In this document: in pieces, positions 3,357-16,606 of the stretch
Numbering within the stretch: the stretch's first letter is position 1
Layout: the number at the start of each line of letters is the position of its first letter
Source: Bacillota bacterium
GTDB taxonomy: Bacteria > Bacillota > Clostridia > Peptostreptococcales > Anaerovoracaceae
Direction: 5' to 3'
DNA: 45,573 bases
Assembly (NCBI GenBank): GCA_025361765.1
Contig: JANYJS010000070.1
Location: forward strand, 1 to 45,573
Position numbers and translations under genes: made by a program
Notes under the pieces: model-generated
Databases searched by the model: none
Told to the model about the DNA's origin: nothing
What the model saw: only the letters and a program-made list of their open reading frames with translations

Positions 3357-6300
3357 TCACTTTCCCATCAAGACTGATACGTGGTGCTTTATGCCATCAT
3401 TGACGAGGTTGAAGGCGTTGCCCTCGAATTCGATGCCATCCACAGTAACTTTTAAGACGCCCCGGGAAAGGCCATCGGGGTTGTGCACCTTTATTTCATA
3501 GGGGGTATCCATATAGTGGTAGGTGATGCTATAAGTCGTCCATTTATTAGGGATACAAGGATCCATAACCACGTTGGCTCCTTTTTTCTTGAAGCCTAAA
3601 ATGGATTCTAAACCCGCCTTATAGTACCATCCTGCTGCTCCGGTATACCAAGTCCACCCCCCTCTGCCAGCGTGAGGATGAACGGAATAGACATCCGCAG
3701 CCATGACGTAGGGCTCAACCTTATAAGTCATGCAGTCTCTTGGACTTCTGGCATGATTGATTGGATTAATGAGATCGAAAAGTTCCAAGGCTTTGTCACC
3801 CTTGCCCAACTTCGCAAAAGCGATAATGAGCCACGCTGCTGCATGGGTGTATTGACCACCGTTTTCTCTCACCCCAGGCACGTAGCCCTTGATGTAGCCC
3901 GGTTCCATAGAACCGCTTTCAAAAGGTGGCGTGAGGAGCTTGATCAGACCGTCATCCCGGTTGACGAGATAATCCTCGGCCGACTGTAAAGCAAGCTTTG
4001 ATCGTTCTTCTGTTCCAGACTCGGATATGACTGACCAGGACTGGGAAATGGAATCGATTTTACAGGAACTGTTTTCTATAGAGCCTAGCGGAAGGCCAGT
4101 ATCGAAATAAGCGCGCCTATACCAGCTTCCATCCCAAGCATTCTGCTCAATACTGCTCATAAGCTGAGTCCGCGTAATGAGATAGTTTGCCGCCAGATCA
4201 TCAAAACCTCTATTTATGCAAAGCGTTGAGAATTTTTTTAAGACAGCGCATAAGAACCAGCCGAGCCAGACGCTTTCACCGCGCCCTTTGTTGCCCACCG
4301 TATTCATCCCATCGTTCCAGTCACCGGAACCCATCAAAGGGAGGCCGTGACTGCCGAAAGAAAGAGAGATATCTATAGCCTTTAAGCAATGATCATATAG
4401 GGAAGCTGAGACCTGTGACACTTTAGGCATGCCGTAACGTTCATCTTCACCATCGGAAAGCAGCGCATCTTCGATAAAAGGCAGCTGTTCATTTAGGATA
4501 GCGTCATCGCCAGTAAGATCTATATAGGCTGATACGATATAGGGTAGCCATAAGCGATCATCCTTAAAACGCGTTCTGGTTCCCTTGCCGCTGGGTTCGT
4601 GCCACCAATGCTGAACATCGCCTTCGATAAACTGATGTCTGCCATGTCTGAGAATTTGTTCTCTTGAAAGCTCGGGCCAAATATGGGCTACCGATAGACA
4701 ATCCTGAAGTTGATCTCTAAAGCCATAAGCGCCACCAGACTGATAGAAAGCGGTGCGGCCCCAAAGCCTGGCAGAAATAATCTGATATTGCAGCCAACCA
4801 TTTAGCATAAGATTCATTGAATCTGAAGGCGTATTAACTTGGGCCACATCTATTTTTTCGCGCCAGAATTTACGCACTTCTTTTAAGGCTTCCTTCGCGA
4901 TTTTGATATTTAAATATTTTTCGACAGCAGGCGGGATGTCTTCTGCATGATCCGCTCTGCCAAAAATCAGAATGACTTCCAGAGTCTCTTCTGATTTGAG
5001 AGTGCAGATGGATTGAATGGCACCGCAAGGGTCAAGACCAGCGCCTATGGCACCGGACAACTTTTCCCTTAATAAGCCATCCGGATTCTCAAGGCCCCCA
5101 ACACCGAAAAACTCATTCCGGTCGCAGGTTAGCGTCTTCTTTGGTAAAGAGAAGTCCATATAGGCAATTTGATCAGGGTAATCTTCGTTATAAGAATTTT
5201 CAAAAGTCAAAGTACCTGTATCGATTTGATTTGAGCGAATATGCATGGCGGTATCCTGATCACTTACACCGAGCACCGGTCTGACATAATAAGTAATGGC
5301 AAGGTCTCGTTTGTTGCTCGATGTGTTTTTCAGCTTTAAAATGCTGATTTTGATGGAGGCATCTACAGGAACAAACTGTGTTAATTCTTGCTCGACACCA
5401 TGACTGTTATGGGATATGGTCGTGTAGCCAAAGCCATGCTGAATGCTATAAGGCTGACGTTCTCTGATAGGAAGGGGCGTGGGCGTCCAAAGCTCGCCGG
5501 TTGACAGATCTCCAATATAGATGGCCTCACCAGAATAATCCTGAACTGGATCATTAGACCATGGTGAGAGTTTGTTTTCCCGGCTATTTTTGCACCAAGT
5601 TGTGCTCGAACCCGATTCGGAAACAAAGAAGCCAAAATTCGGGTTTGAGATGACATTAATCCATGGAGCAGGAGTTGTTTGCTGTTTTTCAAGACGAATG
5701 ACATATTCATCCCCGGAAAGGCTAAAACCACCTATGCCGTTGAAGAAAAGCAGCCTTTTTTCTTTGATGACGGCTGGTGCAAACTTTTTTGGCTTATTGG
5801 AATAGCTTCTCAATTTTGGAAGTCTGACATTGAGTTTGGTTTCCATCTGATCTTCAATTGATCCACTGTCTCCATTCAGGTGAATTCGGGCAACACTATA
5901 GAGAAGTTGCACGTCTTCCATAGGGACTTTGTTTTTATCGAGAATAAACACATCACCAGGGCGATTGACCAAGTCATGAGTTTGTTTGGCCATGACGATA
6001 TCGCTGATGAGGGAGTAAACAGGCAGCGTATAACTGTTATCCTCATTACTGAGAATGACGAGATCTACTTTCAATCCTTTGATACGCCAATATTCATGGG
6101 CTTTAAGTATGTCGTAAAGAATGTCAACTTCAGTGGTCTTGTTAATCACAACCAAAACTATGGGAAGATCCCCTGAAATGCCGTAAGCCCAAAGTGAGGA
6201 TTGACCTCGCTTGTTCAGGAGCATTTTATCCTGATGAATTCTTCGTACAGGGCTTAAGAACAGCAAATTTGACATCATATCCTGATAAAGTTGGAGTTTT

Positions 6301-9300
6301 GTAGCACCGATATTCAAATACCTGTTCTCAACATGACTTCGGGTTAGAGCCAGCTGAAATGCACCTTCAATAGCTGCAGGCGTGGCATATTTGTCGAGGA
6401 GCGCGGACAGGGACTCATTGGTTTCACTCACAACGCTGACAAATGAAACTTGTACTGTTCTTCCTGCGCCGATTGAGATTCTATACTTTAAACTCATCAT
6501 CGGATCGAGGACAGGTCCGGTGGTATTTGACAGGGGCTTCATATTCTCAATGGCAATAGGTGATTTCAGCGTATGTCCGCGACCGATGAACTTCATTCTG
6601 TCAGTTTCATATTCGAGGCTACCAATACTGCCGCCGGGTAAGACCGCTGAATGGCCAAGCCATAGGCCTTTTTCCATTTCCGACCGGGGCCTGCGATTGG
6701 CTATTATACAGTTCCGATCAGGGTCAAATTGGGTTTCAATGAACAAGTTGCTGAATGCGGGATGCGCTTTATCAGCTGAAAGAGAGGTCAGAAGAACTTC
6801 GAAATAGCTCATGATTTCTATTTCACAAGCTACATCACCATTGTTTTTAATACTGATGCGTCGAAGTTCAGAGTTGTCTCCAGAAGCAACAGCTACTTCC
6901 ATAGTGGTTTGCAGGAGTCCGTCAGTTCTTCTATAAATGGCCTTGTCCGCATTGAAAATCACCTTATATTGTTCGGGCAAAACATTAAGAGGTGCATAGG
7001 CAGCTGAGCAGAGGGCATTTGTATTGAGGTTTCTAATATAGAAGAACATGCCATACTGATCTAATACAGCGTCTTCACGCCATCTTGTCACAGCGGTCAT
7101 TTTATTTTTGCTGTATCCCGTTCCTTTATCAGTCAGCATAACGGAATAATTTCCGTTGGAGAGAATATGTACTTTTGGAAGCTCTCTATTTAGTGTTTTA
7201 AAGACTCTTGGAATCATGCGATCCTTGAATGGCTCGGTCTTTAGGATTTTCACCTTTTCTTTGTTTTCTTTGATAATAAGAAGATTGTTGGGCACTTTTT
7301 CCTGAAGCAACAATCTTGCTGAATTCATTTCAGGGTTGGCAAAAAAACGCTTTTGAAGGATGTTTGCGTTTAGGTAATTATTTAGGGATAGCAGGCTCAT
7401 TCCTTGATGATGAGCCATGTAGCTTTTGACAATGGCGCGTTTGGAATCAAAGGCAAGCCTTTCCGGTGTATAATCCGCCGCTTCATAAAACCCATAATGA
7501 CCATACAGGCCTTCGTTTTGAAGATAATGGATATTCTCTATGGCGGCTTTTGGATCAACATGAAGCGACAGTAAGGTGGCATAAGGAGCTGCAACGGAGT
7601 CCTCAAGCAGGCCTCTTTTTAATCCAAGCCAGGGAACGCCCATCGCCTTATACTGATAATCATAATGGATATCCATGGAATTAAATGCCGATTCAGAGGT
7701 GCCCCAGGGCATACCACGAAGGTTACCGTATTTTTTTTGACTGCGCACGGCAAAAGCGTAGGTTTCATCCAGCAGGGTATTTTTATAACTTTTCATAAGA
7801 ATCAAAGGCATGAGGTATTCGAACATACTGCCAGTCCAGGAAACCAGGCCTTTATAGCCATCCATGACGGTGAGCGGTCTTCCCAGTCTCTCCCAATGAT
7901 CTGAAGACACTTCATTTCGGGCTATGCTGATGAAGCTGGTTTGTCTTGCTTCAGAGGCCAATAAGTCATAATAGGAATCCGTGAGCTTTTTCTGATCCAA
8001 GTTATAACCAATGGAAAACAACTGCTTCTTTTCAGAATAGAGGGGTTTAAAGTCCGCCGCTTTAGACAAGTTGTCAATTCTACCCATCAGGCTTACATGA
8101 AAGGCAATGCGTTCTTCTGTCGTAATAATGGATTGAATCAAGGTTTCCTTTAAAGCGAAGAGCCAGTCGCTCCTCAAGTGGGACTGAATAGCAGGATCTT
8201 TTTCCTCCTCGTTTAAAAGCCGGTCTATTTTCACTATCAAATAGCGATAGAGTGAAGGCAGCTCCTTTAGCGGGGTTGGCTTTTTTAGCTGTTCGATAAT
8301 AAATCCAATGCCGCTTGATGAACCATCGTGAGAATCCTGCCCTCTAAAATCCGGAGGCACGGCGGAAAGGAAATCTATCCAAGGCATGTAGTCATTTAGC
8401 TCGTATGCAAACATGTTCAGCATATGCTCGATTTTAACCCGCCAGTTGGATTTTTTAAGCGTTGCGAATTGATCGGCTGCCATGAGCTTAACCATAATAT
8501 TTTTCCACAAAACCGGATCTAAAGCCTCGTCATCGACATGAAAATTGGGGAAATTCAGTTTGGCAATCAAATCCGGTCCTGCTTGACCTGAACACTTCAA
8601 GGTGTCCAAAATTCCATCCACAAACTGGACATCAAGCAATGGCTTATTAAGATAGTCTCGAAGCCCTTGAGTAAGCGTAATAAGATAGCCTACAAAATTG
8701 CCGCTATCGACAGATGATATATATATAGGTCTAAAGGGCAATAAAGTGAGGGTGTCGTACCAGTTATACAGATGTCCATTCCATTTCCCCAATTTTTCAA
8801 TACTGGTTATAGTATCTGAAAGCAAATTTACCATTTCAAGGGTGCCGATGAAGCCAAAATCCCGGGCGGTCATTGTAGCCATGAGGCCAAGGCCAATATT
8901 GGTTGGAGAGGTACGAGTGGCAATGCCTCGAGGAGGATCTTCCTGATAATTATCAGGCGCCAGAAAGTTATTTCTATAATTGGCAAACTCCTCAAAATAT
9001 CGCCAGGTTTTTCTGGCCGTTTTTCTCAGCTCTTCCCTATCATTTTCACTTAAAACATAACGGTCTTCAAGAATTTCTCTACTGAGTTTGTATGCAAGAA
9101 AAGGAGAAAAGAGCCAGATAAAACCGAGTATTATGGTGAATATCAGAGTAGCTGGTTTAAAAAGGATCGATAAGCCAACCATAAATACTACAATCGGAAA
9201 GACAAAAAACATTTTAACCAGATAGTTTCCAAAGGTATTTTTTTGGCTCCTTTCGGCGTCAGCTGAGGTAACCCACTCAAGAGTATTTTTTTGTGTGACA

Positions 9301-12095
9301 AGAACGCGAAACAAAGTGACTGAGACGGCATTAAGCATCAAATAAGCCTGATAGGGAAGGAAGGCGGCTTGAATTGAAACCTGAAGCAAAGTGGCTTTAA
9401 GACCCGAAATAGCCGGCAGATACCCCTTTGTTCTTCCTCTGCCAAAACGGATGGACAATATGGAATCTAAAATTCCATTCATCAGTGGAAATGCCACAGG
9501 TATGAAAGCATAAACCAGCCAAAATAGGCTCCGGCCCGGCAGAATGAAAAGCCCAAGGAAAATCAACACAAGAAGAGCAGGCATTATGAGACTTCTGCGC
9601 ATATTATCGACAATTTTCCATCTGGATAAAAGAGATAGAGGGTTTTTAAACAATAGCATCAGCAGTTGCCAATCTCCCCTGACCCATCTATGAAGCCTGG
9701 CAAAATAAGAGTTGCAGGTGGTGGGATAAGCATCGACAAATTTTAAATCTGTAACGAGGGCTGTTCTTAAATAGGATCCTTCAAGAAGATCATGACTGAG
9801 AACAGTGTTTTCAGGAATGGCACCCTTTAGGACGCTCTGAAAAACAGAGAGATCATAAATGCCCTTGCCTGTAAAAATTCCTTCGCCAAAAAGATCCTGA
9901 TAGACGTCAGATATGGCTCTGGCATAAGGATCAAGACCCTCCTGACCAGTAAATATTCTAGAAAAAAGGGACTTATTTGAACTCTCGATATCAAAATCGA
10001 TTCGGGGCTGCATGATGCCGTAGCCGGAAACCACAACACCTTTTACTGGATCAATAATAGGTCTGTTCAATGGATGCGCCATCGTTGCGATCATTCTTTT
10101 AGCCATACCTATCGGCAACTGGGTGTCGCTATCCAGAGTTATGATATATTTTACATCTTCAAAGGCCAGCTTGCTGTTTGAAGAATAGACGAAGCTGGTT
10201 TCTTTTGAACCGAGAATCAAATCGTTGAATTCCAAAAGCGCGCCCCGTTTGCGTTCCCAGCCAAACCATTTATTATTTTTCGCATTGTACTGGCTTTCAC
10301 GATGGAAAAAATAAAACCTGTCAGCGCCCGCCTCGGATGGATACCTTTTGTTTAAAGCCAGGACGCGGGAAATGGCAAAGTCTATAATCTTGGTATTGTC
10401 ATTGATGGAAGCATCATCCGAGTCTTTGTAGGCGCCAAGAAGGGCAAAGAATAAATTGGGATCCCGATTTGAAAGGTAATGTCTTTCCAGAGTTCTGAGC
10501 AATTCATCAATTCGTGCTTCATCCGGCAGTATAGAGGGGATTACAACTATGGTGCGGAGGTCTGCGGGAATGCCATCCTTGAATTCCATTCTGGGCAGAA
10601 CGGTAGGGTTAAGCCCTCTACAGACGACCCAGTTGACAATGTCCAGGGAAATTTCAGAGGAAGGGATGAGTAGTACAAGAATAATCAGAGCGGCCATAGA
10701 TCCAGTTAAGTGGGAAGTTGCCATTTGGGCATATTGAAGTGCAGTACCCATTAAAATCAGGGTTAAAAGTGCGATGAAGCTTAAATATAGGAAACCCGGG
10801 TAATTTTTAACCAATTTTACAGATCTTGGTATCGGCTTTTTTCTTTTTCCTTGTCTTCTTTCCAGTGTATTTTGCCCGTCGCCGATGAGATAATAACCCA
10901 CATGACCGGTACGGCTAAAGAAGGGAGCTCTGTCATCGGTGAGCAGGCTTTGACTAAGCCCGGACTTTGCCAGCTCAATAGCCTCTCTGGCAATATGTAT
11001 TTCTGAAACGTTATATAACTGGGCAAGTTTTTCAACCTTCCCACGATATCTGTTTCTTGTGGGCTGGTCCATAAGCGGGTATGTGCCATCAGGATCAAGA
11101 TTGAGAGTTTCTTCAACAATACTGGCTGTTGAGAATAGCTCGGACCAGTCCAGTGATGAGATGTATTTTAAATTTGTGATCAGATTTCCGATAGAAATTG
11201 TTGTCACGGACTGAGCGTTGTGTTCCTTTTGGGTCACGCTTTCCGTGGTTGTACCATGCATCTTCAGGTGCTCATCCATGGCGGTAAGAACCATAGGATA
11301 ACTCCAGCCGGATCTTCTTAAACGATAAAAAAGATGTTCGATGAAAGAAGGATTGATTTCATCCATATCAATTAGACTTTCTTCGAAAATCTTCATCCGC
11401 CTCACTGTTTCTACGCCTTGGCTGGCTAAAAAGAGGTCGACGATTTTATCGGCTTTTCGCCACTGCAGCTGAGTTGCTTTCACGTTTTCGCATAACTGGC
11501 GTATATGTTCGATAAGAGCAAGGCGCATTACTATGGGCAACGCCCAGATTTCTCGATCGAAAAGAATGCTATGGGACTGGTAAGCTGAAAGGTAACTCAA
11601 CATAGCCTGCTCGTCAATTTTGGCATCGGTACTGGAAATCATCTCCATAGCTAAGGCGTAGATGCGGGCATGGCCCTTAAGTGGACCTTGTTTGAGTATG
11701 GGCAGTTTTGCATACTCTCTTTTGTTTAAGTCTCTGCGCATGCCTTTGACTTCTTCTTCAATGATATAAAAATTATCCATCAACCACTCTGCAGCATCTG
11801 GAACGGTGCGCTTGGCTTCCAAATCGTTATTCAGCTCACGATAAATGGAATATATATAGTCATAATTATCATTCATTCGAGGCAGTGGCCAGTTCAAAAG
11901 AGTTTTCTTGTTGGATACTGAATGGGAAATTGCGGTTTTTTTGGCTAGAATCGCCAGTTCTTCATGAGTCATAGAGGAATCCCGAGGATTCCAGATCCTC
12001 TGACTCCGGGATCTGACTAAAATAATCCAAAGTAGGACCGTAATTAAAATGAAAAAAACCAAAGCCTCAATTATCAGGCTGATATATAAATTCAT
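3357..12095 (-). CDS. Giant membrane glycosyltransferase-phosphorylase, cyclic beta-1,2-glucan synthase (NdvB/ChvB) type
   Basis: The 2912-aa protein has the full layout of cyclic beta-1,2-glucan synthases. An N-terminal transmembrane helix (residues about 5-27) is followed by a soluble region, then membrane segments near 435-470. A GT84 glycosyltransferase domain follows, with D-x-D (LDSDTQLP, about residue 650), GKGIYDL, HDLLEG and RLHRWVRGDWQLL. More membrane segments lie near 840-1005, then a glycoamylase-like domain (RTSPTNIGLGL, GTSESAF, MAHHQGMSLL near 1560), two GH94 N-terminal beta-sandwich repeats, and a C-terminal GH94 phosphorylase domain (GFRDQLQD near 2460; GSGDWNDGMN near 2592 with the catalytic-type Asp). 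In proteobacteria this enzyme builds a UDP-glucose-derived beta-1,2 chain, trims it by phosphorolysis and cyclises it. The motifs look intact, but the product here is inferred. The ATG at 12095 follows a G-rich stretch; an upstream ATG at 12134 lacks a binding site. It is read from its own promoter at 12150-12178. Confidence 0.85.
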   Translation of the reverse strand: MNLYISLIIEALVFFILITVLLWIILVRSRSQRIWNPRDSSMTHEELAILAKKTAISHSVSNKKTLLNWPLPRMNDNYDYIYSIYRELNNDLEAKRTVPDAAEWLMDNFYIIEEEVKGMRRDLNKREYAKLPILKQGPLKGHARIYALAMEMISSTDAKIDEQAMLSYLSAYQSHSILFDREIWALPIVMRLALIEHIRQLCENVKATQLQWRKADKIVDLFLASQGVETVRRMKIFEESLIDMDEINPSFIEHLFYRLRRSGWSYPMVLTAMDEHLKMHGTTTESVTQKEHNAQSVTTISIGNLITNLKYISSLDWSELFSTASIVEETLNLDPDGTYPLMDQPTRNRYRGKVEKLAQLYNVSEIHIAREAIELAKSGLSQSLLTDDRAPFFSRTGHVGYYLIGDGQNTLERRQGKRKKPIPRSVKLVKNYPGFLYLSFIALLTLILMGTALQYAQMATSHLTGSMAALIILVLLIPSSEISLDIVNWVVCRGLNPTVLPRMEFKDGIPADLRTIVVIPSILPDEARIDELLRTLERHYLSNRDPNLFFALLGAYKDSDDASINDNTKIIDFAISRVLALNKRYPSEAGADRFYFFHRESQYNAKNNKWFGWERKRGALLEFNDLILGSKETSFVYSSNSKLAFEDVKYIITLDSDTQLPIGMAKRMIATMAHPLNRPIIDPVKGVVVSGYGIMQPRIDFDIESSNKSLFSRIFTGQEGLDPYARAISDVYQDLFGEGIFTGKGIYDLSVFQSVLKGAIPENTVLSHDLLEGSYLRTALVTDLKFVDAYPTTCNSYFARLHRWVRGDWQLLMLLFKNPLSLLSRWKIVDNMRRSLIMPALLVLIFLGLFILPGRSLFWLVYAFIPVAFPLMNGILDSILSIRFGRGRTKGYLPAISGLKATLLQVSIQAAFLPYQAYLMLNAVSVTLFRVLVTQKNTLEWVTSADAERSQKNTFGNYLVKMFFVFPIVVFMVGLSILFKPATLIFTIILGFIWLFSPFLAYKLSREILEDRYVLSENDREELRKTARKTWRYFEEFANYRNNFLAPDNYQEDPPRGIATRTSPTNIGLGLMATMTARDFGFIGTLEMVNLLSDTITSIEKLGKWNGHLYNWYDTLTLLPFRPIYISSVDSGNFVGYLITLTQGLRDYLNKPLLDVQFVDGILDTLKCSGQAGPDLIAKLNFPNFHVDDEALDPVLWKNIMVKLMAADQFATLKKSNWRVKIEHMLNMFAYELNDYMPWIDFLSAVPPDFRGQDSHDGSSSGIGFIIEQLKKPTPLKELPSLYRYLIVKIDRLLNEEEKDPAIQSHLRSDWLFALKETLIQSIITTEERIAFHVSLMGRIDNLSKAADFKPLYSEKKQLFSIGYNLDQKKLTDSYYDLLASEARQTSFISIARNEVSSDHWERLGRPLTVMDGYKGLVSWTGSMFEYLMPLILMKSYKNTLLDETYAFAVRSQKKYGNLRGMPWGTSESAFNSMDIHYDYQYKAMGVPWLGLKRGLLEDSVAAPYATLLSLHVDPKAAIENIHYLQNEGLYGHYGFYEAADYTPERLAFDSKRAIVKSYMAHHQGMSLLSLNNYLNANILQKRFFANPEMNSARLLLQEKVPNNLLIIKENKEKVKILKTEPFKDRMIPRVFKTLNRELPKVHILSNGNYSVMLTDKGTGYSKNKMTAVTRWREDAVLDQYGMFFYIRNLNTNALCSAAYAPLNVLPEQYKVIFNADKAIYRRTDGLLQTTMEVAVASGDNSELRRISIKNNGDVACEIEIMSYFEVLLTSLSADKAHPAFSNLFIETQFDPDRNCIIANRRPRSEMEKGLWLGHSAVLPGGSIGSLEYETDRMKFIGRGHTLKSPIAIENMKPLSNTTGPVLDPMMSLKYRISIGAGRTVQVSFVSVVSETNESLSALLDKYATPAAIEGAFQLALTRSHVENRYLNIGATKLQLYQDMMSNLLFLSPVRRIHQDKMLLNKRGQSSLWAYGISGDLPIVLVVINKTTEVDILYDILKAHEYWRIKGLKVDLVILSNEDNSYTLPVYSLISDIVMAKQTHDLVNRPGDVFILDKNKVPMEDVQLLYSVARIHLNGDSGSIEDQMETKLNVRLPKLRSYSNKPKKFAPAVIKEKRLLFFNGIGGFSLSGDEYVIRLEKQQTTPAPWINVISNPNFGFFVSESGSSTTWCKNSRENKLSPWSNDPVQDYSGEAIYIGDLSTGELWTPTPLPIRERQPYSIQHGFGYTTISHNSHGVEQELTQFVPVDASIKISILKLKNTSSNKRDLAITYYVRPVLGVSDQDTAMHIRSNQIDTGTLTFENSYNEDYPDQIAYMDFSLPKKTLTCDRNEFFGVGGLENPDGLLREKLSGAIGAGLDPCGAIQSICTLKSEETLEVILIFGRADHAEDIPPAVEKYLNIKIAKEALKEVRKFWREKIDVAQVNTPSDSMNLMLNGWLQYQIISARLWGRTAFYQSGGAYGFRDQLQDCLSVAHIWPELSREQILRHGRHQFIEGDVQHWWHEPSGKGTRTRFKDDRLWLPYIVSAYIDLTGDDAILNEQLPFIEDALLSDGEDERYGMPKVSQVSASLYDHCLKAIDISLSFGSHGLPLMGSGDWNDGMNTVGNKGRGESVWLGWFLCAVLKKFSTLCINRGFDDLAANYLITRTQLMSSIEQNAWDGSWYRRAYFDTGLPLGSIENSSCKIDSISQSWSVISESGTEERSKLALQSAEDYLVNRDDGLIKLLTPPFESGSMEPGYIKGYVPGVRENGGQYTHAAAWLIIAFAKLGKGDKALELFDLINPINHARSPRDCMTYKVEPYVMAADVYSVHPHAGRGGWTWYTGAAGWYYKAGLESILGFKKKGANVVMDPCIPNKWTTYSITYHYMDTPYEIKVHNPDGLSRGVLKVTVDGIEFEGNAFNLVNDGIKHHVSVLMGK

Positions 12096-12149
12096 TTTAG
12101 GACCCCCCCGCACGATGTTAATTGAGTTAAACATACGATTGTTAATAAT

Positions 12150-13671: not shown

Positions 13672-13700
13672 TTGCCAAACAACTCGAAATAAACTATAAT
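13672..13700 (+). promoter_or_regulatory. Sigma-A type promoter of the magnesium operon
   Basis: TTGCCA at 13672-13677 and perfect TATAAT at 13695-13700 are separated by 17 bases. Transcription would start near 13707, just before the M-box aptamer. The -35 box lies directly after the stop codon of the cupin gene. Confidence 0.8.
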
Positions 13701-13719
13701 GAGACGAGATAAAAAAATA

Positions 13720-13870
13720 GGCCTCGGTAGGTGAGGTTACTATAAGGATACGGATTGCTGCCGTGAAAGGATGGAGACACCCTGAACTGGTCAGCAGGTT
13801 TTGCCGAAGAAACAAGGCATAACCTAATGCAATTACATCGCCTTACAGTGCCAAAGCTTGAACGGGAGTA
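13720..13870 (+). ncRNA. M-box (ykoK) magnesium riboswitch aptamer
   Basis: The RNA matches the conserved M-box core in order: GGTAGGTGAGGTTACTATA, then GGATACGG-ATTGCTGCC, a variable middle, GCATAACCTAATGC, and the highly conserved 3' part CCTTACAGTGCCAAAGCTTG. In Bacillus the ykoK leader folds around Mg2+ and favours a terminator when Mg2+ is plentiful. The same layout is seen here: the aptamer is followed at 13887 by a strong intrinsic terminator, and the genes behind it are Mg2+ transport-type genes. The boundaries are approximate because the closing P1 helix was not resolved by eye. Confidence 0.9.
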
Positions 13871-13886
13871 ATGGGGATTCTGTATG

Positions 13887-13923
13887 CCTTCGCTTTCGGT
13901 CATGATCGAGCGAAGGTTTTTTT
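13887..13923 (+). terminator. Intrinsic terminator, expression platform of the M-box
   Basis: CCTTCGCT (13887-13894) pairs with AGCGAAGG (13909-13916), followed by seven T residues. It lies between the aptamer and the first coding region, so it is the expected Mg2+-controlled off switch. Confidence 0.9.
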
Positions 13924-13961
13924 GCGGGAAAAAATTATCTTATTCGGAAAGGAGACCCGAA

Positions 13962-14012
13962 ATGGACGCGGACGCGGATAGTAGAAACTATAAAAAAACT
14001 ATGATTCGGTAG
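13962..14012 (+). CDS. Candidate leader peptide, 16 aa, acidic then basic
   Basis: This very short ORF encodes MDADADSRNYKKTMIR. It has an excellent ribosome binding site: AAAGGAG at 13948-13954, seven bases before the ATG. It lies downstream of the M-box terminator, so it is transcribed only on read-through, and upstream of the MgtE-like gene. Its TAG stop at 14010-14012 lies inside the left arm of the 23-bp inverted repeat at 14005-14061. The N-terminal Asp-Ala-Asp-Ala-Asp followed by a basic C-terminus parallels the enterobacterial MgtL leader peptide (acidic/proline N-terminus, arginine-rich C-terminus), for which low-Mg2+ ribosome destabilisation is known. That this ORF is translated, and that it senses Mg2+, are inferences. 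Confidence 0.55.
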   Translation: MDADADSRNYKKTMIR

Positions 14013-14061
14013 GATGATTTAATAAAATCAGCATCTGGTTTTATTAAATCATCCTACCGAA
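14005..14061 (+). promoter_or_regulatory. Perfect 23-bp inverted repeat abutting the mgtE-like ribosome binding site
   Basis: The arms at 14005-14027 and 14039-14061 are exact reverse complements, with an 11-base loop. As RNA this gives a 23-bp stem. No U-tract follows, so it is not a standard terminator; instead AAGGAGG of the next gene begins five bases after the right arm. The left arm includes the last two codons and stop of the leader ORF, so a ribosome at the leader stop would cover part of it. It could be an attenuation or stability hairpin, or a DNA operator. Confidence 0.85.
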
Positions 14062-14081
14062 AAAGAAGGAGGATGAGCGCT

Positions 14082-15335
14082 ATGACCCATGTAAGCACTT
14101 TTTATTTCAGCCGCATAAGCGGCAGAAAAATTGTCAATGATTTTGGCATAAAAGTCGGGGCAATTAGGGATCTGGTTGTATTGCTGGATAAAGACCTGGT
14201 GAGACCAAAGATTATTGCCATTCAGGTTAAGACTAGAGACGGCATCAAGAATGTAGACTTTTCAAATTTTAAAATAGATAAAATAGGCGGGCAATATGTC
14301 TTCAATTGCAATGAACTTTTGGATATCAGCATTGAGGGCAAAGAGACTATGCTGCTTGGAAAAAATGTCATGGATCGTCAACTAGTGGATATGGATGGCA
14401 GAAAGCTGGTCAGAGTCAATGATATCAGACTGGCGATTTTAGCTGGCAATACCTATATGCTGGCAGTTGATGTTGGACTTCAAGGCCTTTTCAGACGTCT
14501 TGGGGTCGCCAAACCGCTAATGCGCGTCCTAAAACTTTTCAGAACGACCTTGCCCAGCCACTTGATTCTATGGGAGGATGTGGAGACTGTTGATTATGGT
14601 CACGCCGGCATCAAACTTACAAAGGATTATTCAAATCTGTCTAAACTTCATCCCTCTGACCTAGCGGATATCATTGAAGAACTGGATAAAAATACACAGT
14701 TCGCTATTTTTTCTTCTCTTGATCAGGAAAAGGCAGCAGACGTTCTAGAGGAACTTGAACCAAACGTTCAAAAAACAATGATTGAGAGTATGGCTCTTGA
14801 AAAGGCCGCAGATATCCTTGAAATGATGCCTGCCGACGAAGTTGCAGACCTTCTTGAAGAACTCAGAGAAGAACAAGCCGAAGCGCTTCTGGCAGAAATG
14901 GAAGATGAAGCGTCTGATGAAGTCAGAGAACTCATGGATTATCCGGATCATTCCATAGGCAGCGTGATGACCACGGATTATATTTCCTTCAATGAAAACA
15001 ACACCGTTGAGGAAACCATTGCAGAATTAAGAAGGCTTAGTCCTGAAGCGGAAGACATCTATTATCTTTATATTGTTGATGCGGATGAAAAACTTTTGGG
15101 CACGGTATCGCTAAGAGATATTATAGTGGCAGATCCCAAGACTAAGCTAAGTGATATTATGAATAGGGATGTGATCTCTGTTGTAGATACGGACAAAATG
15201 AACACAATAAATGAAATTATTTCAAAATACAGTCTCATGGCGGTTCCTGTTATAGATGAAGATGAGGCTATGGTTGGTGTAGTAGTCATAAATGATGTTG
15301 TATTCAACTTGCTTAAAGCGCGAAGAAAGAGATAA
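14082..15335 (+). CDS. Soluble MgtE-N/CBS magnesium sensor-like protein with PRC-barrel N-terminus
   Basis: The 417-aa protein has the cytosolic half of the Mg2+ channel MgtE but no channel. Residues about 1-75 look like a PRC-barrel (FYFSRISGRKIVNDFG, then IGGQYVF), with a possible second copy from about 85 to 150. An MgtE-N superhelix follows at about 190-285 (LHPSDLADIIEEL, EKAADVLEEL, EKAADILEMMPADEVADLL). A CBS pair ends the protein (IGSVMTTDYISF, VDADEKLLGTVSLRDI, LSDIMNRDVISVVDTD). No hydrophobic segment long enough for a membrane helix is present. In MgtE this module binds Mg2+ and gates the pore, so here it probably regulates the transporter encoded 11 bases downstream. The ATG at 14082 is chosen over 14073 because AAGGAGG ends nine bases before it and directly abuts 14073. 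Confidence 0.88.
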   Translation: MTHVSTFYFSRISGRKIVNDFGIKVGAIRDLVVLLDKDLVRPKIIAIQVKTRDGIKNVDFSNFKIDKIGGQYVFNCNELLDISIEGKETMLLGKNVMDRQLVDMDGRKLVRVNDIRLAILAGNTYMLAVDVGLQGLFRRLGVAKPLMRVLKLFRTTLPSHLILWEDVETVDYGHAGIKLTKDYSNLSKLHPSDLADIIEELDKNTQFAIFSSLDQEKAADVLEELEPNVQKTMIESMALEKAADILEMMPADEVADLLEELREEQAEALLAEMEDEASDEVRELMDYPDHSIGSVMTTDYISFNENNTVEETIAELRRLSPEAEDIYYLYIVDADEKLLGTVSLRDIIVADPKTKLSDIMNRDVISVVDTDKMNTINEIISKYSLMAVPVIDEDEAMVGVVVINDVVFNLLKARRKR

Positions 15336-15346
15336 TGGGGTGAATA

Positions 15347-16606
15347 ATGACTGAAACTATAAAAAGAAAGGGATTCGTTAAAAACTTCTTGTTTTTTCTC
15401 GCAATTCTTGGCCCAGGCATTATAACAGGTAGCGTGGACAATGATGCCGGCGGTATTACCACTTATTCGGCAGCGGCAGCTACTTACGGCTACGACTTGC
15501 TTTGGACGCTGATTCCTGCCTTTATTGTTCTGTTTGTTGTTCAGGAAATGAACGCACGTATGGGCATAGTCACCGGAAAAGGGTTGGCCGATTTAATCCG
15601 AGAAACCGCTGGGGTTAAAATTACGTTTTTAATGTCTGTGGCGCTTCTTCTGGCCAACATCTCCAATGTGACCACTGAATTCGCAGGCGTAGCAGGCAGT
15701 ATGGAAATTTTTGGGGTTGCCCGATATATTTCTGTTCCGATTATCGCTGTAGCCGTATGGTTTATGGTTGTCAAGGGCAATTATAAAATTACAGAACGCA
15801 TTTTTCTCATATTTAGTGTAGCGCTTCTTTCTTATATTGTTTCGGCTTTATTGGGTCATCCGAATTGGGGCGAAGTTGGTTCCGCCATGATTCATCCGAA
15901 GATGCAGTATAATTTTGGCTACATATCTATGATTGTGGGACTTATTGGGACGACAATTGCTCCGTGGATGCAATTTTATATCCAGTCGGCTGTCATCGAG
16001 AAGGGCCTTAAAGTTGAGGATTATAAATACACAGTTCTTGATGTCCTTGTAGGTTGTATCGCTACTGTTGTAGTTGCCTTTTTCATCATGGTTGCATGTG
16101 GCTCAACGCTATATCTCAACGGACATGGAACGGTCATCAACGCTGCAAGTGATGCGGCCGCGGCGCTCAAACCCTTCGCCGGCGCTTTGGCTTCTGAAGT
16201 CTTTGCATTCGGACTTTTCGTCGCTTCAGTTTTTGCAGCGGTTATTTTGCCTGTTGCAACGGCATTCTTTGTGTGTGAGGCGCTGGGATTTGAGGCGGGA
16301 ATTGACAAGACCTGGGAAGAGGCACCTCAGTTTTACTGGCTCTACACCGGCATTATTATTGTTGGTGCCGGTATCATCCTTATTCCCGGCGCGCCACTGA
16401 TTTCAATTTCGTTATGGTCACAAAGAATCAATGGGATTCTACTGCCGGTTGTTCTTCTTTTCATGATGCTGATTATAAATAATAAAGAAATTATGGGGAA
16501 ATATGTAAACAAGGGCCTGGGTAATATTATCGGCTGGACAACCATCATCACCTTAACAGTGTTATCCTTATTTATGCTTTTCACATCGATCGTACCAATT
16601 ACATAG
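15347..16606 (+). CDS. Nramp-related transporter, probable magnesium type (NRMT)
   Basis: A 419-aa protein with about 11 membrane helices and Nramp architecture. The metal-site motifs differ from Mn/Fe Nramps: TM1 has D33-A-G-G where DPGN is usual, and TM6 has A205-P-W where the M-P-H motif is usual. Loss of the TM6 methionine and histidine is the hallmark of the Nramp-related Mg2+ transporters, and the M-box upstream supports Mg2+ as substrate. Other family-like segments include FLAILGPGIITGS and FVVQEMNARMG. The ATG is preceded by GGGGTGA, and the gene follows the MgtE/CBS gene by 11 bases, so the two are one operon. The exact ion is inferred from motifs and context. Confidence 0.87.
   Translation: MTETIKRKGFVKNFLFFLAILGPGIITGSVDNDAGGITTYSAAAATYGYDLLWTLIPAFIVLFVVQEMNARMGIVTGKGLADLIRETAGVKITFLMSVALLLANISNVTTEFAGVAGSMEIFGVARYISVPIIAVAVWFMVVKGNYKITERIFLIFSVALLSYIVSALLGHPNWGEVGSAMIHPKMQYNFGYISMIVGLIGTTIAPWMQFYIQSAVIEKGLKVEDYKYTVLDVLVGCIATVVVAFFIMVACGSTLYLNGHGTVINAASDAAAALKPFAGALASEVFAFGLFVASVFAAVILPVATAFFVCEALGFEAGIDKTWEEAPQFYWLYTGIIIVGAGIILIPGAPLISISLWSQRINGILLPVVLLFMMLIINNKEIMGKYVNKGLGNIIGWTTIITLTVLSLFMLFTSIVPIT

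Follow-up and report, generated by a model that had tools for sequence, protein, structure and literature searches.

What is a 16-codon open reading frame (ORF) doing between a magnesium riboswitch and the magnesium transport genes behind it? The question is raised by a stretch of DNA of 45,573 nucleotides from a Bacillota bacterium, called the window throughout, in which a sequence-only reading had proposed an MgtL-like leader peptide, acidic first and basic towards its end, that would serve as a second Mg2+ sensor in series with the riboswitch. Overall this MgtL/mgtQ-like interpretation is partly supported by our analysis, and the ORF is probably a regulatory, Mg2+-sensing leader peptide belonging to an M-box-linked class that extends across much of the phylum and acts in series with the riboswitch.

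Organization of the leader and the operon

On the plus strand, a sigma-70-like promoter (TTGCCA-17-TATAAT, 13672-13700, 11/12 matches in a consensus scan) precedes an M-box (ykoK) magnesium riboswitch aptamer at 13716-13874, which scored 108.1 bits (E 2.7e-23) against RF00380, above the gathering threshold of 44, and is the single match to this family in the window's own genome. Downstream, an intrinsic terminator could be read from the sequence (13887-13923, plus strand), with the stem CCTTCGCT/AGCGAAGG at 13887-13894/13909-13916 followed by seven T; its loop of 14 lies outside the 3-8 allowed by the consensus scan, hence it is unlisted there. Both features of the M-box class are present, as this terminator is followed by Mg2+ transport genes (MgtE_N/CBS and Nramp by Pfam).

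The leader ORF, MDADADSRNYKKTMIR, occupies 13962-14012 on the plus strand, with ATG at 13962, the stop TAG at 14010-14012 and the Shine-Dalgarno sequence (SD) AAAGGAG, read from the sequence, at 13948-13954. It is short, carries an SD and lies ahead of a Mg2+ transporter gene, as an MgtL-type leader requires, and it is a member of the conserved class of upstream ORFs (uORFs) described below. The sequence-only reading had the 16 codons, the good ribosome site and the order of terminator, ORF and Mg2+ genes right, as well as the three Asp within the first six codons (codons 2, 4 and 6), and miscounted the basic residues as five, where there are four (R8, K11, K12 and R16). The first operon gene (14082-15335, plus strand; start 14082 chosen over 14073 on SD spacing) encodes a PRC - MgtE_N - CBS protein without the MgtE membrane domain (Pfam MgtE_N 6.3e-27, CBS 1.5e-14, PRC 8.9e-06), and it is followed at 15347-16606, on the same strand, by an Nramp-family gene (Pfam Nramp 1.1e-89) that we call NrmT-like, the assignment to magnesium following the text available from PMC4072509.

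Some further sequence features were noted in passing. The end of the uORF (13993-14013) is a near copy of one strand of the M-box closing stem, the 5' one (13711-13731), with 81% identity over 21 nt and TCGGTAGG common to both, and might pair with the 3' strand of the M-box. The left arm of the M-box terminator (13887-13900) is 86% complementary over 14 nt to the region before the main SD (14056-14069). The minus strand has a very long ORF (2925 aa) at 3357-12134.

Close relatives of the operon

In a named genome collection, a near relative of the first protein was found in Sporobacter termitidis (L033, 55% identity). Within the window's own order the N-terminal domain was matched at E 0.001 in 2 of 393 genomes, one being the window's own and the other a weak match (7.6e-4). 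Six genomes with the domain, Sporobacter among them, were found among 394 of the Sporobacter order, and a search of 250 genomes of Sporobacter's family added one more, L044. An M-box above the Rfam cut-off precedes the gene in three of the seven domain-bearing relatives (L033, L039 and L041), and two of these three have the uORF, MSADPSHRKRIYEKWIRWDCSLIFMCED in L033 and MDADPGNRSKTFELNTEGILSDSP in L039; the leader of L041 keeps the M-box and the same gene, and no acidic-start uORF was found in it. The N-terminal pattern M-[DS]-A-D-x is common to the window and its relatives, while the remainder of the peptide mostly is not.

The gene of the PRC-MgtE_N-CBS type in L044 (minus strand) is preceded by the uORF MDADRIPAQKSFKTNTEFDMFSCR and then by a hairpin like an intrinsic terminator, and the RNA-family scan gave no M-box match at this locus. 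The peptide module may thus occur without the riboswitch.

Acidic-start uORFs are frequent behind M-boxes

A search with RF00380 of 391 genomes of the taxonomic class gave 100 rows in 91 genomes; with G1363 and G1368 left out (contig ends), 97 leaders and the window formed a first sample of 98, chosen regardless of the genes after the M-box. M-box starts are search coordinates, and as a check GGTGA was found within the first 30 bases in 78 of the 97. A leader was counted if any candidate uORF passed a strict criterion: it had to be 8-70 codons long, match the SD over 5 nt or more, and have one D/E among residues 2-4 and two D/E/P among residues 2-6. Because this criterion was fixed after looking at the first sample, a second one was taken with the criterion unaltered, from 259 genomes of the phylum in which the M-box genomes, except for the window's, belong to the same phylum and another class. 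The window's own row, G1606 (partial aptamer) and G1558 (below the cut-off) were left out of its 100 rows, and L202, too short, was left out of the resulting 97 leaders.

An acidic-start uORF with SD was present in 60 of the 98 leaders of the first sample, where 100 dinucleotide shuffles gave a mean of 1.95 (maximum 6) and the reverse complements 1/98. In the second sample it was present in 50/96 leaders and 35/66 genera (shuffles, mean 2.29, maximum 7; reverse complements 1/96), so that it was seen in 110 of the 194 leaders of both samples together. Because of relatedness within genera, the leaders are not fully independent. When only the candidate with the best SD was considered, 56/69 passed in the first sample. 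Leaders behind TPP riboswitches of the same class gave 0/49 (50 from a longer list, one too short), these leaders being shorter (mean 142 vs 229 nt) and offering fewer candidate uORFs (15 vs 96). Near misses such as MESGSGCD, MEAGSSSG, MDVGSSSS, MENGPYGGR, MDSGPGSL and MDSDPGNI were left uncounted. An ORF of 16 codons only could well arise by chance in an ordinary M-box leader; the enrichment in both samples led us to reject this reading, and together with the codon-level constraint described below it leaves chance with next to no probability.

Counted by genus, with L033 and L039 added by hand, the uORF occurs in 38/56 genera of the first sample. Of these 38, 33 have D or E at residue 2, 28 have G or D at residue 4, 22 have P at residue 5 and 10 have P at residue 7, which gives a consensus of M-[DE]-x-[DG]-P, an acidic or acidic/proline start. 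The second sample gave MDDPDADL, MDSGPYSHK, MDTDPDGR, MDADPGPQ, MDPGPSSR and other, similar starts. The lengths vary widely, from 15 to 65 codons in one sample and from 17 to 67 in the other.

The distribution is uneven. By the strict count the uORF is rare or absent in families f17 (1/11), f33 (1/8) and f63 (0/3), and it is present in every leader of f31 (16/16), f36 (5/5), f59 (4/4) and f64 (4/4) and in 13/17 of f51; since whole lineages that keep the M-box lack it or rarely have it, the uORF is dispensable. Loss of the ORF from relatives that keep the M-box had been named as the observation that would count against a leader peptide. Such cases exist, L041 and some M-box lineages among them, yet on the whole the acidic-start uORF is conserved far past the close relatives. 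By main gene, named by motif in 100 leaders (the 98 plus L033 and L039; type confirmed by Pfam for eight proteins from seven loci), it precedes mgtE in 30/40, corA in 14/28, PRC-MgtE_N-CBS in 9/10 and others in 9/22, near relatives being included in these counts. An Rfam scan of 20 loci at gathering thresholds matched 19 M-boxes and, at another place in L107, one FMN riboswitch, with no other known family after the M-box.

Two leaders stood out in this collection. In L090 (G1071) TAGGTGA is found three times at a spacing of 361 nt, starting from a weak M-box (70.6 bits), and Rfam finds one M-box. The first ORF after the M-box of L088 (G072) looks by eye like the beginning of an MgtC-type protein; it ends after about 54 codons and may be a broken gene.

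The first codons are constrained as peptide

Conservation of the acidic N-terminus in relatives, the comparison that the sequence-only reading called for, was found at the amino-acid level. Within seven groups, 132 of 204 codon differences in codons 2-7 were synonymous, where random single changes give an expected fraction of 0.23, and the other two frames of the same DNA gave 21/209 and 18/225. By this synonymous bias the N-terminus is kept as peptide, as in MgtL-type leaders. In an equal-length comparison of 17 pairs at least 70% identical, codons 2-7 held 18 synonymous and 6 non-synonymous differences and codons 8 to the end 45 and 111 (Fisher p 3.4e-5, an indicative value, as the pairs overlap and are not independent). 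Since differences in codons 2-7 are mostly synonymous and those in the rest are not, selection appears to act on the nascent N-terminus rather than on the finished peptide. Judged from the sequences, such a pattern would be expected of a nascent chain that acts inside the ribosome and not of a finished functional peptide.

Of the acidic-then-basic peptide proposed at first, the acidic start stands, with D2 and D4 in the register of the EPDP motif of MgtL; the basic C-terminus, to go by the 111 non-synonymous and 45 synonymous differences from codon 8 onwards, is not a conserved feature. Within residues 2-5 the window has the two acidic residues of this motif and lacks its prolines, where the consensus of its relatives is D/E2, D/G4 and P5. 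As Pro5 is common in relatives and the window peptide has no proline, the match to MgtL is weaker for the window member.

The codon data also bear on two other explanations of the conserved start. What is conserved could be RNA structure rather than a peptide, namely a helix formed by the SD and start of the uORF with their surroundings, and the SD/start region does pair with later uORF sequence beyond shuffles (0.65 vs 0.42, p 1.4e-8, 58 leaders), for example in L115, L107 and L062 among the uORF leaders of L045-L141. The window, L039 and some others show no such excess of pairing, and only in the true frame do codons 2-7 differ mainly by synonymous changes, which makes an RNA element very improbable. 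Alternatively, the product could be a small functional protein, as MgtS-type peptides are. A conserved peptide behind mycobacterial M-boxes, Rv1805A, offers a precedent (PMC12810186, in the text available). Constraint that is visible in codons 2-7 and not from codon 8 to the end, and lengths of 15 to 65 and 17 to 67 codons, argue against such a protein, to which we give hardly any weight.

Predicted strand competition at the next Shine-Dalgarno sequence

Downstream of the uORF start the window carries an inverted repeat with arms at 14005-14031 and 14035-14061, 27 nt each and 96% complementary, around a 3-nt loop (-37.4 kcal/mol, z -13). The leader ORF runs with its last codons and its stop into the left arm, segment 1. 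Segment 2, the right arm, contains the anti-SD TCATCCTACC at 14049-14058, and segment 3 (14066-14076) is the SD region AAGGAGGATGA of the first operon gene, with AAGGAGG at 14066-14072 downstream of the long hairpin; all lie on the plus strand. By sequence and folding, segment 3 rivals segment 1 for segment 2, which can pair either with the uORF end or with the SD GGAGGATGA (14068-14076). The latter duplex has -12.9 kcal/mol and was equalled in 11 of 2000 shuffles. The stop codon thus lies in the left arm, as the sequence-only reading had it, and the single hairpin of that reading gives way to a competition among three strands (uORF end, anti-SD strand and SD), which fits better.

Other roles of the long hairpin were considered. 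It was rejected as an intrinsic terminator, because no T-run follows it on the plus strand, and also as a mobile or repeated element: the 57-nt inverted repeat has no second copy in the window's genome, the other match being its own inverted match.

Pairing alternatives by which the next SD would be masked or freed, as the mgtQ type requires, are predicted for the window, L033 and L039. In L033 and L039 the uORF contains a copy of the SD/terminator arm and rivals it for the left arm (5/2000 and 1/2000 shuffles as good); the hairpin that masks the SD ends in T6 and may double as a terminator. The corresponding terminator competition in L044 was not significant (357/2000 shuffles as good). When the window was folded under constraints, the SD had an unpaired probability of 0.29 with a ribosome at the stop, 0.52 in the free RNA and 0.42 with an early ribosome. 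In L033 and L039 the SD was masked in all three folds. As the three strands (uORF, anti-SD and SD arm) compete significantly in the window and these two relatives, early ribosome drop-off should raise translation, and the window folds agree with raised downstream translation after an early abort.

Folding across the class

Folding covered 58/62 and 45/50 of the uORF leaders in the two samples, within the bounds set by distance limits, duplicates and leaders without a main SD. Main SDs are mostly paired, with mean unpaired values of 0.34 and 0.37, and a terminating ribosome would sit on the main SD in 17/58 and 14/45 leaders. Both figures would suit plain translational coupling, in which the uORF opens a closed main SD or feeds reinitiation and has its acidic start for another reason, e.g. 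weak initiation. Against it, the uORF overlaps the main start in 11/58 and 6/45 leaders, the ribosome at the stop lowers SD access in the window, and amino-acid-level selection on codons 2-7 would not follow from coupling alone; we therefore consider coupling an improbable explanation compared with the leader peptide acting on its ribosome.

With an early ribosome as the mask, SD access went up by more than 0.1 in 19/58 leaders (0 fell) and 16/45 (3 fell). This gain did not significantly exceed that from masks at other places (p 0.41, n=56; p 0.33, n=40), and as random later masks do about as much, it was dropped as evidence, so that folding leaves the general sign of control unfixed. The effect of an early abort, on whose sign the window folds agree, is not resolved by class-wide folding, and on these models the control logic of the window cannot simply be extended to the whole class, because the architectures after the uORF differ. 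In folds of L115, L120 and L102, the last uORF codons also form an anti-SD for the main gene.

Relation to known leader peptides and proposed mechanism

In the accounts of MgtL available from PMC11282234 and PMC11552253, Glu2 and Asp4 of EPDP cause ribosome dissociation at low Mg2+, so that mgtA gets transcribed. Like MgtL of the enterobacterial mgtA, the window uORF is short, belongs to a Mg2+ transporter leader and has acidic residues 2 and 4 in the same register, to which most relatives add Pro5. It differs in belonging to another phylum, in lying behind an M-box with its own intrinsic terminator, and in its target, since MgtL acts through a Rho-dependent terminator, whereas control here appears to use masking of the SD (window) or, in L033 and L039, an SD hairpin that resembles a terminator. 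Moreover, the likeness lies in a short motif, and the window has D-A-D-A-D without proline.

The second comparison is mgtQ of the Salmonella mgtC-mgtB intergenic region, whose Asp2/Glu5 lower uORF translation and free the mgtB SD via alternative hairpins, promoting mgtB translation (PMC8092293, available text). A strong SD, Asp2, alternative hairpins on the next SD and translational control are common to both; mgtQ, however, is 8 aa long, lies between genes and uses four strands (1:2/3:4 vs 2:3), where the window uses three (1:2 vs 2:3). In trp/ilv-type leader-peptide attenuators, too, ribosome position decides the competition of RNA strands, and the signal differs: in place of a scarce charged tRNA, it would here be Mg2+, through its action on the acidic nascent chain.

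A ribosome-acting leader peptide might still answer to a signal other than Mg2+, such as EF-P, the supply of tRNA-Pro or tRNA-Asp, ABC-F activity or elongation speed, with pausing instead of drop-off. The frequency of proline (residue 5 in 22/38 genera, residue 7 in 10/38) would fit, and acidic repeats near the N-terminus can pause ribosomes without dissociation, which EttA relieves (PMC11282234, in the text available). The association of the uORF with Mg2+ riboswitches and with unrelated Mg2+ transport genes (mgtE, corA and MgtE_N-Nramp), its absence from the 49 TPP leaders and the missing proline in the window peptide speak against another signal, which we hold to be a serious but unlikely alternative to Mg2+ sensing.

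We therefore propose the following for a Mg2+-sensing leader peptide. The uORF would be translated, and its acidic, often acidic-proline, first residues would act on the translating ribosome, as in MgtL and mgtQ, so that at low Mg2+ the ribosome would drop off or pause within codons 2-7. For the window this means that, after such an abort, segment 1 would be free to pair with segment 2, and the SD of the MgtE_N/CBS-Nramp operon would be open and translated. A ribosome that reaches the stop at 14010-14012 would instead cover segment 1, segment 2 would pair with the SD and translation would be lowered. This logic, on after early abort and lowered when the stop is reached, follows the predicted SD accessibility (0.42 with an early ribosome vs 0.29 with one at the stop). 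The uORF would be a second, translational Mg2+ checkpoint for transcripts that have passed the M-box terminator.

To our knowledge, MgtL-type nascent-chain Mg2+ sensing is known from enterobacteria only. Our results suggest as new an MgtL/mgtQ-like leader peptide in another phylum and in series with a riboswitch, the MgtL/mgtQ kind itself being known, and our search of the open-licence literature, which could miss a subscription paper, found no uORF class described for the M-box leaders of Bacillota. Genome-wide surveys of RNA motifs mention other uORFs and other Mg2+-linked motifs in their available text (PMC11109978, PMC6429828). In the text available from PMC12810186, mycobacterial Mbox uORF2 (Rv1805A) is a conserved peptide after an M-box, said to be specific to mycobacteria, where a translational M-box platform and Rho control it. 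It shares with our class the position following the M-box, a conserved N-terminal region and a proline at position 7, and differs in that its authors propose a role for the peptide and not a nascent-chain sensor. As described in the available text of PMC4072509, Nramp-related genes linked to M-boxes transport Mg2+ and are named NrmT, and some adjoin an MgtE-like fragment; the M-box operons of C. acetobutylicum (Ca_c0685, Ca_c3329) are of the same kind as the window operon. That text contains no uORF term, its one 'small ORF' being the MgtE-like fragment, and as the NrmT reporters gauged transcript, a translational second step would have gone unseen.

For the phylum as a whole, the evidence leans, by a little, towards M-boxes commonly being in series with a second Mg2+ sensor, a ribosome destabilised on an acidic nascent N-terminus. 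If this is true, the D/E-x-D/G-P solution of enterobacterial MgtL arose or persisted in a distant phylum, and Mg2+ is sensed twice on a single transcript, at first through the folding of the RNA and later through the stability of the ribosome. Should more than half of the sampled M-boxes bear such a peptide, ribosome destabilisation by an acidic N-terminus may be a general Mg2+ sensor, and M-box 'riboswitch' leaders may sense Mg2+ in two ways, with a second, translational step that has been overlooked. Within the class the presumed destabilising motif comes in dozens of natural variants, e.g. MDADP, MDSGPLP, MDDPDAD, MDTDPD and MDPGPLP, and the recurring acidic residues 2 and 4 gain a testable reason.

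One further acidic start was seen in L119 (M-box at 101-272), where MDSDGSKGNN is in frame with the mgtE-like main gene, as though the stop of a uORF had been lost.
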